Shown here in pieces: positions 435 to 5,313 of a stretch of DNA of 64,000 nucleotides (its first letter is position 1; the number at the start of each line of letters is the position of its first letter). Origin of the DNA: Acidobacteriota bacterium (lineage in GTDB: Bacteria; Acidobacteriota; Holophagae; Holophagales; Holophagaceae). The notes below the pieces were generated by a model. That model made no database searches and had not been told where the DNA came from. It worked only from the letters and a program-made list of their open reading frames with translations. The stretch is from the NCBI GenBank assembly GCA_016195985.1, contig JACPYP010000029.1:62001-126000 (forward strand), written 5' to 3'. A program made the position numbers and the translations under genes.

Positions 435-2816
435 TCACGCCTCGACCGGAGTCTCTACGAGCCGCTCGAGACTTTGCTTGAGTTGCTTTAGATCGAAAGG
501 CTTACCCAGGTAGGGCACCTGGCTGGCCTCCAGGAATTCCCGGGTCTTCACGTCGAAGGAATCCCCCGTGGTGTAGAGGATCCGCCGGGTCATGGCCGGG
601 CGCTGGGCCTTCAGCCAATCAAAGAGATCGACACCCGAAAGGCCGGGCATGCGGATGTCCGAGACGATGACGTCAAAGGTGCCGGCCTCCAGCTTCTGGA
701 TCGCCTCATCGCCCCGGGGGCTGGATTCCACCTCCATGCCCCAGGCGCTGAGAGCATCCACGAGGCACTCCAGCAGGAAGCTTTCGTCGTCGACCACCAG
801 GGCCCTGGTGCCCTTCAGGCCCGCCTGGGCGGGGGGAGCCACCACGGCCTCCTTCACGGGCACGACCGGAAACTCCATCAGGAGTGCGTTTCCGAGCCCC
901 TCCTGGCTGCGCGCGCTGATGCGGCCCCCGTGCTGGCGGGCGATGATGTCGGCGATGGGCAGGCCCAGGGCTTCGGTGGTGGTGGCCTGGGCCGGATCGA
1001 ACAGTTCCGCCTGCCGCGCTTCGCCCACGGCCGGGCCCGTGTCCTGGACCACCACCTGCAAGCTCTCGCCGGACACCCGGGTGGCCACCCTCAGCCGCTT
1101 GATGGGGCTCAGGGCCATGGCCTGCAGGCCGTTCAAGAGCAGGTTGGTGAGGGCCTGGACCAGGAGCCCCGGATCCAGGGCCGTCAGGGGCAGGGCCGGA
1201 TCCAGATTCAGCTCCACGGAAGCGCCCATGCGCTGTGCCTTGGCATCCACCAGGGCGGCGGCCTCCTGCACCAGATCGTTCATCCGCACGGGCAGGGGCC
1301 TGGGGCTGGGCGGATTCAGGACGGTTTGCAGGGGGTGCAGCAGGCTCTGGATGGAATCCACCGCCTTCACCAGGCGGGTGGCCTGCTCGGCCTGGTGCGG
1401 ATCCATGGAGGATTCGGCGATGAGCCGGGATTCCAGCAGCACCGGGGTGAGCCGGTTGGCGGCCTCGTGGAAGAGGGAGGGCACCAGGCGCCCCAGGGCC
1501 TCATGCTTCTGGGAGTGGACCAGCTGATCCTGCAGGTCCCTGTGTTCGGACAGATCCCGCACCAGGGCCGAATAGGCCAGCACCCGCTCGTCGTTGCCGC
1601 GGACAGGCGCGTAGGTGATGTTCGCCGGGAAAGCCACGCCCCCTTTGCGGAGCCGCGTGGTGGCCATGTCGCGGATCACCTGGCCGCGGCCCACCTGCTG
1701 GGCCACCTGGTCCAGTTCCGTCAACAGGTGGTCCGGCGTCAGCTGGGCCATGCTGCGTCCCACGATTTCAGGGCGCGAATAGCCGAAAATGCGCTCCGCC
1801 GCCATGTTCCAGGTCAGGATCTTGCCGTCAGGAGCATAGGAGATGACCGCTTCGCCGATGTTCTGCACCAGGCCTTCCAGGTAGCGCCGGGTTTTCAGGT
1901 TGTCTTGGTTGGCGCGGTCCAGCTGGGTGTAGAGCTGGCTCAGCTCCTCGTTTTTCTTTTCCAGCGTGTCCTTCACCTGCTTCAGCTCGGAATAGAGCCG
2001 CGCCGTCTCCATGTTGGATTTGAGGGCGTCCTCCAGCAGGTCCTGGGCGTCGGCCACCTTGCCCGGCGTCAGGTCCGCCACCGTCACGTTGCTGTGCCGC
2101 AGCACCGTGGATTCCACCGGCGGAGCGAGCGGAGCCTCCTGGGGCTGGGGCAGATCCCGCATGCTCGACCGCACGTTGGATTCGATGAGATTGAGCATCT
2201 CTTCGAAATCCTTGATCTTCTTGTCGAGGTGGTACTTCTTGAAGGTATAGCTGACGGTTTCGCGGGTGATGGAGAGGAAGGTGTCCAGCACGCCCGTGCC
2301 CCGGTTGGCCACGGATTCGAAATAGGGCACGCTGCGGAAGTTCAGGCGGCGATTCATGACACCCACCGCCAGCGCGTCAGGCAGGTCCCGCTTGTTGTAC
2401 TGGATGACGAAGGGGATCTGCTTGATGTTCAGGCGGTTCGCGTTGAGGTTGTGGTACAGGTTCGACAGGGAATCCACGTTGTCCTGCATCTTGGCTTCGC
2501 TGGAGTCCGCCACGAAGACCACCCCGTCGGCGCCGCCGAGCACCACGCGGCGGCTGGCGTCGTACTGCACCTGGCCAGGCACGGTGTAGATCTGCAGATG
2601 GATGGCATTGCCGTAGATGTAGCCCAGGTTGATGGGCAGCAGATCGAAGAACAGCGTGCGGTCTTCCTGCGTGTTGACCGAGAACATCTCGCCCCGCTGC
2701 TCGTCCGAGCACATGGCGTGCAGCGACTGCAGGTTCGTGGTTTTTCCTGACAGCCCCGGTCCGTAGTAGACCAGCTTGAGCAGGATCTCATTGGCACGGG
2801 TGTTGAACTGAACCAT
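435..2816 (-). CDS. MglA-like GTPase fused to PAS, histidine kinase and receiver domains
   Basis: A 793-residue cytoplasmic signalling fusion. Residues 1-200 are an MglA/Ras-like GTPase: P-loop GPGLSGKTT (19-27), the MglA-type TVPGQ G3 motif (78-82) and NKRD (141-144). A Pro-rich linker and a coiled coil (about 258-310) lead to a PAS domain (about 311-425). A kinase core follows with H450 (LFHEAANRL) as the likely phospho-acceptor, N558/N562 of the ATP-binding N-box, and a reduced G-box (LGLPIADIIARQHGG). Residues 670-790 are a receiver domain with D676/D677, phospho-acceptor D720 (VSDIRMPG) and K772. No transmembrane segment is visible. Free-standing MglA controls polarity and motility with MglB-type partners, so the GTPase may gate the kinase; that role is inferred. 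The ATG start gives an intact GTPase N-terminus. Confidence 0.9.
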   Translation of the reverse strand: MVQFNTRANEILLKLVYYGPGLSGKTTNLQSLHAMCSDEQRGEMFSVNTQEDRTLFFDLLPINLGYIYGNAIHLQIYTVPGQVQYDASRRVVLGGADGVVFVADSSEAKMQDNVDSLSNLYHNLNANRLNIKQIPFVIQYNKRDLPDALAVGVMNRRLNFRSVPYFESVANRGTGVLDTFLSITRETVSYTFKKYHLDKKIKDFEEMLNLIESNVRSSMRDLPQPQEAPLAPPVESTVLRHSNVTVADLTPGKVADAQDLLEDALKSNMETARLYSELKQVKDTLEKKNEELSQLYTQLDRANQDNLKTRRYLEGLVQNIGEAVISYAPDGKILTWNMAAERIFGYSRPEIVGRSMAQLTPDHLLTELDQVAQQVGRGQVIRDMATTRLRKGGVAFPANITYAPVRGNDERVLAYSALVRDLSEHRDLQDQLVHSQKHEALGRLVPSLFHEAANRLTPVLLESRLIAESSMDPHQAEQATRLVKAVDSIQSLLHPLQTVLNPPSPRPLPVRMNDLVQEAAALVDAKAQRMGASVELNLDPALPLTALDPGLLVQALTNLLLNGLQAMALSPIKRLRVATRVSGESLQVVVQDTGPAVGEARQAELFDPAQATTTEALGLPIADIIARQHGGRISARSQEGLGNALLMEFPVVPVKEAVVAPPAQAGLKGTRALVVDDESFLLECLVDALSAWGMEVESSPRGDEAIQKLEAGTFDVIVSDIRMPGLSGVDLFDWLKAQRPAMTRRILYTTGDSFDVKTREFLEASQVPYLGKPFDLKQLKQSLERLVETPVEA

Positions 2817-2941
2817 GGGTTCGCCAGGAAAAAAGTGGAATACAGCCTAACACGGGGGAAGGCGCCGCAAGGCGCCACACCCTCTCTACGGCAAGCCCCG
2901 TGCTAGCATGACCTTTTTCACCCCTCGAGGTTTCCAGCGCG

Positions 2942-3262
2942 ATGACCGTTCCGACCCCTGTGGCCATCATTATCCCGGTATGCCCTCCGGGCATGCTCGA
3001 GGCCGGCCACGCGGCACCCGCCCGGAAATGCCCAGCCCTGAGCCCGCGATGACTGTTCCGACCCACGTCGCCATCATCATCTCGGTATGCCCTCTGGGCA
3101 TACGCGAGGCCGCCCACGCGGCACCCGCCCGGAAATGCCCAACCCTGAGCCCGCGATGACTGTTCCGACCCACGTCGCCATCATCATCTCGGTATGCCCT
3201 CTGGGCATACGCGAGGCCGCCCACGCGGCACCCGCCCGGAAATGCCCAGCCCTGAGCCCGCG
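2942..3262 (+). repeat. Three tandem copies of a 107-bp unit ending at the uppS start
   Basis: Units begin at 2942, 3049 and 3156, and the real uppS ATG is at 3263, so the period is exactly 107 bp. Each unit holds a copy of the first 33 nt of uppS followed by a 74-nt segment. Copies 2 and 3 are almost identical; copy 1 is more diverged. The 74-nt part contains a hairpin (TATGCCC-TCT-GGGCATA) and, in copies 2 and 3, a second inverted repeat (GCCGC-CCAC-GCGGC). The segment ending at the uppS ATG is the same 74-nt sequence, so the array fills the uppS leader. Confidence 0.9.
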
Positions 3263-3266
3263 ATGA
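2942..3266 (+). other. Chain of three 36-codon mini-ORFs coupled by ATGA overlaps to uppS
   Basis: Each 107-bp unit is an open reading frame of 36 codons plus TGA (2942-3052, 3049-3159, 3156-3266). Each stop overlaps the next start as ATGA, and the last one overlaps the uppS ATG. Because 107 is not a multiple of three, successive mini-ORFs lie in different frames and each must terminate before the next starts. Their N-termini copy UppS (MTVPTHVAII). A role as a translational-coupling leader is inferred; stable peptides are not claimed. Confidence 0.45.
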
Positions 3267-3949
3267 CCGTTCCGACCCACGTCGCCATCATCATGGACGG
3301 CAACGGCCGTTGGGCTGCCCAGCGGGGCTGGCCCCGCATCAAGGGGCACAAGGCCGGGGTCCTGGCAGTGGAGCGCATCCTAGAGGCCGCCGCTGACGCG
3401 GGCATCAAGCATCTAAGCCTCTATGCCTTTTCTACGGAAAACTGGAAGCGGCCCGCCCTGGAGGTGGGGGCCCTCATGGCCCTGCTGCGCATGTACCTCC
3501 GCATGTTCCTCCATAAGCTCGCCCGCAAGGGGATCCGGTTCCACCACCTGGGTTCGCCCGAGGGGATGCCTTCGGGGATCCTGGCGGACATGAGGACCCT
3601 GGAGGAAGCCACCGCCCAGAACACCGGCATGACCTTCCACCTGGCCGTCAACTATGGCTCCCGGCTGGAGCTGGCTCAGGCCGCTCGGCGCTGCGTGGAG
3701 GACGGCCTCCTCCCCGGGGAGGTGGACGAAGCCGCTCTGCAGGCCCGGCTTTGGACGGCGGGGGTGCCCGATGTGGACCTGCTCATCCGCACCAGCGGCG
3801 AGCACCGCATCTCCAATTTCTTGCTATGGCAATCCGCCTACGCCGAACTGCACATGACCGACCTCCTGTGGCCCGATTTCGGCCCCGCCGAACTGAAGGC
3901 CGCGCTCGATGACTACGCCCAGCGCGAGCGGCGTTTCGGGGGAATCTGA
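3263..3949 (+). CDS. uppS: Isoprenyl transferase (undecaprenyl diphosphate synthase)
   Basis: A cis-prenyltransferase that condenses isopentenyl diphosphate onto farnesyl diphosphate to make the C55 carrier lipid for peptidoglycan and other wall polymers. The 228 residues show the family signatures: HVAIIMDGNGRWA with catalytic D12, YAFSTENWKRP, VNYGSR, and the C-terminal RTSGE-HRISNFLLWQSAYAEL. The start at 3263 gives the normal length and places D12 as in the family; an upstream in-frame ATG at 3194 lies inside the repeat array and would add a non-homologous 23-residue tail. Its stop overlaps the cdsA start (TGATG). It opens the conserved uppS-cdsA-dxr-rseP operon. Confidence 0.96.
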   Translation: MTVPTHVAIIMDGNGRWAAQRGWPRIKGHKAGVLAVERILEAAADAGIKHLSLYAFSTENWKRPALEVGALMALLRMYLRMFLHKLARKGIRFHHLGSPEGMPSGILADMRTLEEATAQNTGMTFHLAVNYGSRLELAQAARRCVEDGLLPGEVDEAALQARLWTAGVPDVDLLIRTSGEHRISNFLLWQSAYAELHMTDLLWPDFGPAELKAALDDYAQRERRFGGI

Positions 3950-4839: not shown

Positions 4840-5313
4840 TCTCCACGAAGGACACCAAGGAGGCGAATGGACACGAAAGAGCTGCGTTTCAAAGACGAGG
4901 TGTTTGCCATCGTCGGGGCAGCCATCGAGGTCCATCGCGCGCTCGGACATGGCTTTCTCGAGGCCGCGCCTGCGGAGGCCCTCGCCAGAGAGCTGGCCCA
5001 GGCCGGAATCCCTTTCGAACAGGAAGTTCCTTTGCAGATCCACGACAAGGCTGAGCCCTTGAAGAAAGCCTATCGAGTCGATTTCCTGGTGTTCGGAGTC
5101 ATCCTGGTGGAGTTCAAGGCCTCAGACGCCCTCAGCAGCGCCGACCAGGCCCAACTGCTCAATTACCTCAATACCACGGGGCATGCTGTTGGCGTCCCTC
5201 TGCACTTCGACCATCACCCCAAGCTCGAATGGATCCGAATGTGAACTGACCTTTTCAGCACCTGCCCTTTGTATCCTCTTTCATTTCTCTTCTTTGTATC
5301 CTTCGTGGAGATC
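4838..5313. repeat. Inverted repeats bounding the GxxExxY gene
   Basis: The left arm starts at 4838 with GATCTCCACGAAGG and continues imperfectly (ACACCAAGG). The right arm ends at 5313 and is its reverse complement: CCTTCGTGGAGATC at 5300-5313 is a perfect 14-bp match, with further partial matching inward. The left arm overlaps the cdsA stop and contains the AAGGAGG ribosome-binding site of the enclosed gene. The right arm contains the GGAG preceding dxr. The pair therefore encloses one gene inserted in an otherwise conserved operon. Confidence 0.8.
4867..5244 (+). CDS. GxxExxY family protein (PD-(D/E)XK-like fold)
   Basis: A 125-residue protein of the GxxExxY family, named for a GxxExxY motif seen here in variant form (GHGFLEAAPAEAL). 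A nuclease-like core follows, with D and E/K residues in YRVDFLVFGVILVEFKA, as in PD-(D/E)XK enzymes. Biochemical function is unknown. Genes of this family are often found with short CACCAAGG-type repeats, as here. It has a strong AAGGAGG Shine-Dalgarno sequence 3 nt before the ATG, supplied by the repeat. It sits between cdsA and dxr, genes normally adjacent, so it is a probable recent insertion unrelated to lipid synthesis. Confidence 0.85.
   Translation: MDTKELRFKDEVFAIVGAAIEVHRALGHGFLEAAPAEALARELAQAGIPFEQEVPLQIHDKAEPLKKAYRVDFLVFGVILVEFKASDALSSADQAQLLNYLNTTGHAVGVPLHFDHHPKLEWIRM

Follow-up and report, generated by a model that had tools for sequence, protein, structure and literature searches.

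The locus raises the question of how a gene comes to be preceded by repeated copies of its own beginning. In the window (by which we mean the whole stretch of 64,000 nucleotides analysed, from an Acidobacteriota bacterium of the family Holophagaceae), three tandem units stand directly upstream of uppS. The original prediction took this array either for an amplified translational-coupling leader, which could tune the synthesis of UppS (carrier lipid), or for a mobile short repeat that had copied the gene start. By sequence comparison, this array turns out to be a single case of a small palindromic element that is dispersed through Holophagaceae. Both earlier ideas have gained support: the mobile repeat, because the hairpin occurs family-wide between edge copies of many genes, and the coupling leader, because the mini-ORFs nearly always stop close to the next start, at uppS as well as at other gene starts.

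The array was delimited at 2938-3294 by Tandem Repeats Finder (period 107, 3.3 copies, 94% matches, 0 indels), and its features are collected in Table 1. The exact period that had been claimed for the three units was found, but unit 1 has diverged, being identical to units 2 and 3 at 96/107 and 97/107 positions (11 and 10 differences). Likewise, the units do start as copies of uppS, albeit with differences in each of them, and depart from the gene after the shared first 32 nt. The predicted chain of 36-codon ORFs was read correctly: each TGA overlaps the following ATG, the last of which belongs to uppS, and all overlaps have the form ATGA. Since the period is not a multiple of 3 (107 = 2 mod 3), each successive unit falls in a new frame, as had also been pointed out. 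Within the window, a degenerate hairpin pattern with 3 mismatches identified exactly the three array hairpins (0.01 expected), and the remaining matches to covariance model R1 at E-values up to 1 were the same hairpins on the opposite strand only (12.8-14.7 bits). No sigma-70-type promoter could be identified by consensus match upstream of unit 1, so that the promoter role of the leader in front of it is presumed. A block similar to this leader (2884..2941) precedes unit 1, or a uppS gene devoid of units, in most genus genomes (by eye).

Table 1. Features of the uppS array and its surroundings (positions in the window)
Feature	Position	Strand	Description
Leader with GAGG (2927-2930)	2884..2941	+	5' of unit 1; presumed promoter and Shine-Dalgarno region
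Unit 1	2942..3048	+	107 nt: uppS-start copy, hairpin, spacer; most diverged of the three
uppS first-32-nt copy, unit 1	2942..2973	+	four differences from uppS
Hairpin, unit 1	2972..3004	+	covariance model R1, 37.7 bits
Mini-ORF 1	2942..3052	+	36 aa; TGA (3050-3052) overlaps ATG at 3049
Unit 2	3049..3155	+	107 nt; Tandem Repeats Finder and unit alignment
uppS first-32-nt copies, units 2 and 3	3049-3080, 3156-3187	+	one difference each
Hairpin, unit 2	3079..3111	+	covariance model R1, 53.2 bits; also degenerate pattern
Mini-ORF 2	3049..3159	+	36 aa; TGA (3157-3159) overlaps ATG at 3156
Unit 3	3156..3262	+	107 nt; 106/107 identity to unit 2
Hairpin, unit 3	3186..3218	+	covariance model R1, 53.2 bits; also degenerate pattern
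Mini-ORF 3	3156..3266	+	36 aa; TGA (3264-3266) overlaps uppS ATG at 3263
uppS, undecaprenyl diphosphate synthase	3263..3949	+	228 aa; Pfam PF01255, 1.6e-78

A 251-aa version of UppS (window 3194-3949) results if translation is read from an in-frame ATG within the third hairpin, and automatic annotation could pick this start. Elsewhere in the window, a divergent 793-aa ORF (435-2816, minus strand) combines, by eye, an MglA-type GTPase with PAS, histidine-kinase and receiver-like parts. Downstream of uppS, a small ORF (4867-5244), which we take to resemble the GxxExxY family, lies between cdsA-like and dxr-like genes (by eye).

A search of the DNA of the source genome returned, past chance-level matches, one weak second place (E 0.016) in a biotin carrier protein gene, the 3' end of which is duplicated around a uppS-like hairpin. 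A degenerate pattern scan then revealed many dispersed hairpins. The element is a hairpin of about 31 nt with the consensus core CTCGGTATCNCCTGCGGNGATACGCGAG, a three-base loop and a single bulged G; the stem has 13 bp, counting a T and an A/G just outside the core. The 31 aligned 33-nt hairpins begin with NTCTCGG or close variants. Among 31 distinct copies, 97.8% of the cells are paired and two-sided changes occur in 6/13 pairs, with a covariation of 0.240 against 0.099 after shuffling (0/500 as high) and at most 0.113 in slid controls. The uppS hairpins alone (31 copies, 29 distinct) are paired in 96.8% of the cells and show a covariation of 0.154 against 0.072 when shuffled (0/500); their two-sided changes, in 3/13 pairs, are a count reached by 80/500 shuffles. 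A conserved peptide encoded by the hairpin was rejected for lack of third-position bias in the hairpin codons, which suggests that it is the pairing, and not a peptide, that is kept.

The covariance model R1 matches all 41 genus genomes with 3-36 copies each, the source genome having 36. Under stricter filters, matches were obtained in 58/65 family genomes (the exceptions being G068, G073, G076, G081, G084, G091 and G092) and in 0/16 genomes from other families of the class. The pattern scan of viral contigs gave no hairpins, and a plasmid search with the uppS array gave no match. For eight loci compared with Rfam no family was found, a single miRNA match scoring 29.8 bits against a gathering score of 90. 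This dispersal through genomes rules out any explanation confined to uppS; the earlier view of the hairpin segment as specific to this gene had to be abandoned, the same hairpin being present at about 20 hosts.

Among 60 relatives, uppS was detected in 56, and the leader was read in 35 genus genomes, G063 among them (in G014 the leader is cut off at the contig start). At least one unit precedes uppS in 27/35 of these, with 41 units in total and a copy number of 0-3; the copy-number variation anticipated for Holophagae genomes is thus present. An assembly duplication, which had been named as a possible refutation, does not account for units at the same place in 27/35 genomes, including the single-contig assemblies G020, G032 and G063; together with the presence in many species, these assemblies rule out an artefact as the source of the phenomenon. 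In the draft genome G009, contigs C8 (L171) and C46 (L172) end at hairpin arrays, and copy numbers from draft assemblies are therefore lower bounds. Units are absent from 8/35 genomes, of which six (G031, G015, G010, G035, G027, G030) have clean leaders with neither hairpin nor uppS-start copy, and two (G004 and G023) have leaders of degenerate appearance (by eye).

When copy number was mapped onto a gene tree of 36 uppS rows, the bootstrap of which had not settled, 16 changes were counted against a shuffled mean of 17.6, a value as low being reached in 45/200 shuffles. Copy number is hence not clearly clustered on the tree, suggesting rapid turnover without sign of a preferred number. Spacer identity averages 0.72 within genomes (range 0.32-1.0) and 0.40 between genomes. 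In a second Holophagaceae lineage, represented by an uncultured bacterium (L215, 75% UppS identity), the 107-nt unit begins with GTG, the overlap reads TAGTG, and a weaker candidate unit precedes this one.

The surroundings of the hairpin were compared for 126 R1 matches in 100 loci, of which 123 were examined, forming 100 locus groups; the three excluded matches were one decayed copy (L081) and two overlapping ones (L132). In 52/100 locus groups, representing about 20 hosts, the hairpin is flanked on both sides by direct copies of a host-gene edge, a share that is no estimate for a genome, since the loci come mostly, and not exhaustively, from nine genus genomes and 20 of them (L073-L092) were partly chosen for visible pairs. 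Of 675 control positions shifted within these loci, 1 passed the duplication criterion. Well-preserved repeats reach 72-79 nt (e.g. L073, L076, L079, L186, L191), implying a unit of about 73 nt of host sequence plus about 31 nt of hairpin. The periods of the 52 arrays are 102-108 in 38 cases, and 67-69 (2), 113-116 (2), 154-158 (7) or 170 (3) in the others; in the two E2 arrays (113 and 116) the hairpin loop is 10-11 nt longer. For 14/20 hosts, by our own hand grouping, all periods lie within 102-108, and in a few genes the spacing indicates a host duplication of about 36 or about 124-138 bp. For uppS and several more hosts, taken to be older cases, the alignment is confined to the coding part (about 32 nt in uppS). 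The remainder of the uppS unit does not clearly resemble the leader, which is why its origin as a copy is deduced from the better preserved loci.

The duplication criterion was failed by 48/100 groups, many of them located within longer palindromic repeats; some groups failed because their copy is offset, decayed or short, or because a contig end truncates it (L166, L167, L159, L172). The longer palindromic repeats of many non-duplicated groups are of at least two kinds and often have a tail such as AACTGATATCTG (by eye), and they may hold the source or the vehicle of the hairpin. In the source genome (G000, loci L133-L140, e.g. L137:771-803), nine identical hairpins are embedded in a longer palindrome, CACCACCAAGACGCCAAGGCACCAAG ... 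CTTGGTGCCTTGGTGTCTTGGTGGTG, which has no flanking direct repeats; related copies were found in L141-L150, L203 and L204. In L081, L087, L088, L156 and L210 the hairpin is held by a longer folded repeat with a tail near AACTGATATCTG, which in L081 has a z-score of -3.3 over 241 nt and for which L081, L087 and L088 gave no Rfam match. Some copies of this repeat end in the inverted repeat GTGCCTAACAAAACCCC ... GGGGTTTTGTTAGGCAC, which presumably recalls the core boxes of integron attC sites.

Hosts were identified by a Pfam scan of one representative each, leaving two (L183 and L199) unassigned. At gene starts, nine hosts were found: uppS, polA (5'-3' exonuclease domain), a manC-like gene (nucleotidyltransferase), a DUF502 gene, a MacB-like permease, ThiF, an amino-acid permease, cydB (cytochrome bd subunit II) and a folP-like gene (pterin-binding enzyme). 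The nine hosts at gene ends are rpsT, elongation factor P (efp), two biotin carrier proteins (BCCP), 2-oxoacid dehydrogenase E2, an NFACT-R domain protein, adenosine deaminase and two open frames without Pfam domain (L163, L092). In all 18 assigned hosts the insertion point lies 12-120 nt inside the coding sequence, after a pyrimidine-rich stretch ending in T, and in 0/18 is it intergenic. Judged by the period, the duplication in these 18 cases is long enough to extend beyond the gene edge, which leaves the copy next to the body of the gene whole. In both biotin carrier genes (L002 and L082) the interruption separates Met from Lys in the biotin motif, and the periods are 158 and 170 and not about 105.

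The rpsT gene, present in 36/41 genus genomes, provides a second comparison of occupied and empty sites. Of its loci, 30 were fetched (6/36 genomes were not) and 28 were readable (not L299 and L309); second C-termini were searched over 420 nt, and the hairpin was judged by eye within 130 nt. A further copy of the C-terminus follows a hairpin in 14/28 loci, with two further copies in G000, G015, G019 and G005, and G009 has only a decayed further copy (by eye). In 13/28 readable loci no second C-terminus was found within 420 nt. In loci with a well-preserved duplication (L073, L076, L079), the repeated stretch includes the terminator downstream of rpsT. The empty sites at uppS and rpsT support insertion with target duplication, and the occupied state is taken as derived, as the family was not found outside Holophagaceae; repeated precise loss also fits single empty sites.

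With respect to reading frames, 38/41 uppS units (27 genomes) have their stop at -16..+6 from the next start, against a mean of 26.1 (sd 2.0, highest 32 in 300 shuffles) with shuffled spacers; because the genomes share ancestry, units are not independent in such counts. Of the units of 107 nt, 28/29 stop at +1 (ATGA) and one at -11, and of those of 106 nt all 11 stop upstream, nine at -10 and two at -22. The 105-nt unit of G022 has no nearby stop, being in frame with uppS and running into it.

In 9/9 representative gene-start hosts the stop of the truncated ORF falls at -13..+8 nt from the true start, a range that was chosen after the data were seen and that refers to gene starts of our own choice (manC has two possible ATGs). 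The stop lies at +1 in uppS, DUF502, manC and the amino-acid permease, where the overlap has the form NTGA, at +5 in polA and cydB (NTGNNTGA), at +8 in folP, at -11 in ThiF and at -12 in MacB. For all nine hosts, only one frame in three gives a stop in this range, which corresponds to 5e-5 under random frames; the product over the nine hosts is 1.5e-6 for shuffled spacers with random frame, and a weaker 8e-4 if spacer length is kept. The stop of polA is at +5 in 8/8 loci, and ThiF in G001 is off frame, with a stop at -18. The left copies of ThiF and of the permease have no start codon at the aligned position and one in frame nearby (by eye). Two rdgB-like loci (named by eye), which by the duplication criterion lie outside the 52 groups, have their stop in TTGA at a possible TTG start.

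Differences between the truncated copy and the gene number 32, 31 and 88 at codon positions 1, 2 and 3 (41 uppS units). Such a third-position bias is expected if the stretches are translated or are regularly gene-converted, and it could be due to either. The reading phase of the hairpin, shared by nearly all hosts (L155 is the exception), was dropped as evidence: if the target ends in TT and this TT occupies codon positions 1-2, or is the AA of Lys AAG on the opposite strand, a shared phase can arise without any need for selection. The placement of the stops supports a putative translational coupling at the truncated copies, but coupling cannot be the reason for the presence of the element at gene ends.

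We propose that the uppS array originates from a dispersed hairpin of Holophagaceae that probably inserts with duplication of its target, rebuilds the gene edge that it enters, forms recombining arrays and, at gene starts, leaves truncated ORFs coupled to the gene; we put the probability of this reading at about 0.7. Its footing is comparative: the dispersed hairpin, the flanking edge copies, the empty and occupied sites, the copy-number variation and the stops at true starts were all established by comparison. According to the proposed mechanism, the hairpin would insert in a single event behind a pyrimidine run ending in T and duplicate a target of about 73 bp, as suggested by occupied and empty sites. 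Insertion near a gene edge would rebuild the edge on one side and leave a truncated copy on the other, and arrays of 2-3 units would then grow and shrink through recombination between the direct repeats. At gene starts, as the comparative signals indicate, the truncated copy, still equipped with the original leader, would be where ribosomes initiate; they would translate across the hairpin, terminate at or beside the true start and re-initiate there. Selection would have filtered or adjusted lengths and stop codons in such a way that coupling was preserved, and in uppS the coupled unit would occur one to three times. More tentatively, and with the odds somewhat against it, the element might represent a class of minimal mobile DNA: a hairpin of about 31 nt placed by a ruler enzyme at a T-ending coding site, with a duplication of about 73 bp (about seven helical turns), which could therefore settle at essential gene edges and leave the genes unbroken, producing coupled leader ORFs as a by-product. 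To our knowledge, a fixed target duplication of about 73 bp fits no transposition mechanism.

That the array is instead a selected regulatory leader of uppS, with UppS synthesis set or tuned by its repeated coupled mini-ORFs and its hairpins, appears unlikely. The units in 27/35 genus genomes, the two-sided changes by which hairpin pairing is kept at the uppS locus, and the different stop-start solution (TAGTG) of the second Holophagaceae lineage with 75% UppS identity would all agree with it; however, units are cleanly absent from six genomes, the element is also found in about 19 hosts besides uppS, in nine of them at the gene end, and copy number changes often (16 against 17.6 when shuffled), with no preferred number evident. 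We give little credence to a scheme without any insertion, in which gene edges were duplicated in tandem by replication slippage seeded by a pre-existing hairpin. In Wolbachia, slippage is the assumed origin of VNTRs that contain 23-bp hairpins (PMC3287509); hairpins can promote it, arrays of 2-3 similar units exist, and the higher spacer identity within than between genomes points the same way. It cannot have placed the hairpin, though, as one hairpin sequence family is found at about 20 unrelated hosts and is absent from the empty sites, but it may well explain the later growth of arrays.

Two known modes of transposition were considered as the mover. Retrotransposition, in which a hairpin RNA would be reverse-transcribed by target priming from a T-ending nick and a staggered second nick would give the long duplication, would be in line with the insertion point behind a pyrimidine run ending in T and with the duplications being long. 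The rather uniform duplication length argues against it, as does the distribution of reverse transcriptase (PF00078), which was found in only 9/23 genus genomes searched and is absent from element-rich ones (no such domain in G001, G002, G007, G008, G015, G017 and G018, with 8-28 R1 matches each), making this route improbable. Mobilization as a REP-type element by a Y1/RAYT transposase is the least credible of the alternatives: size, bulged palindrome and dispersal are reminiscent of such elements, but Y1_Tnp (PF01797) is present in just 5/41 genus genomes, insertion is within coding sequence and with long duplications, and there is no GTAG tag inside the aligned 33 nt. Both enzymes are thus disfavoured as mover, missing as they are from many carriers.

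Returning to the proposed target-duplicating hairpin, the gene-start cases appear closest in action to the mycobacterial MIRUs, by analogy. These are described as apparently mobile repeats whose insertion at a start codon couples an ORF inside the repeat to the gene at a -4 nt (NTGA) spacing (PMC12548453), so that the gene likely bears the insertion (PMC12548453, PMC2734929); the enriched spacings listed for neighbouring genes include -4 and -8 (PMC12548453). For fpg1 of M. tuberculosis, expression level has been linked to how long the repeat array in front of the gene is, which sets a precedent for the idea of an effect on UppS dose (PMC2734929). Both systems are small, dispersed and apparently mobile repeats with tandem units of variable copy number (here 0-3 before uppS in 35 genomes and 0-2 extra rpsT C-termini in 28), and in both a unit ORF overlaps or abuts the downstream start, as far as sequence indicates, the stops at ThiF, MacB and folP lying nearby. 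The differences are that the start and the first ~10-27 codons of the mini-ORF are here a copy of the host gene and not a repeat-borne ORF, that the carried part is just the hairpin of about 31 nt, that the lineage is Holophagaceae, and that insertion is not at start codons but 12-120 nt inside coding sequences, at gene starts as well as ends.

Other known systems share fewer features. REP/REPIN (RAYT) elements are likewise palindromes of 20-40 bp dispersed in the genome (PMC3733652, PMC3116915), but no GTAG or CGTC tag occurs in the 31 aligned hairpins, most carriers have no Y1 transposase, and the element resides at coding-sequence edges with a host duplication of about 73 bp. Rickettsia palindromic elements also occur in reading frames of conserved genes; they are described as 105-146 bp long and fused in frame into host proteins (PMC2229807), whereas here the host protein is intact and the truncated ORF separate, except for the in-frame uppS unit of G022. 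The Wolbachia repeats VNTR-105 and VNTR-141 resemble the present arrays in their periods (105 and 141 bp), internal hairpins and signs of concerted evolution, but neither duplication of gene edges nor one hairpin family at multiple genes is shown for them in the parts of the source considered (PMC3287509). A published description of the hairpin element was not found in the literature searched, which is weak evidence, most subscription papers lying outside its scope.

If the proposed insertion mechanism is correct, this is a mobile repeat that would be safe inside essential genes, because the gene edge that it enters is rebuilt, and its near-constant duplication of about 73 bp would place it outside the transposition mechanisms known to us. 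Hairpin arrays of this kind flag errors in start sites and repeats in the annotation of the genomes that carry them. The nine gene-start hosts would then constitute natural experiments on translational coupling, in which a stop had to come to adjoin a start, and the spacing that most of them have reached (-4, -8 or a few nt upstream) is of a kind listed as enriched or efficient in PMC12548453.
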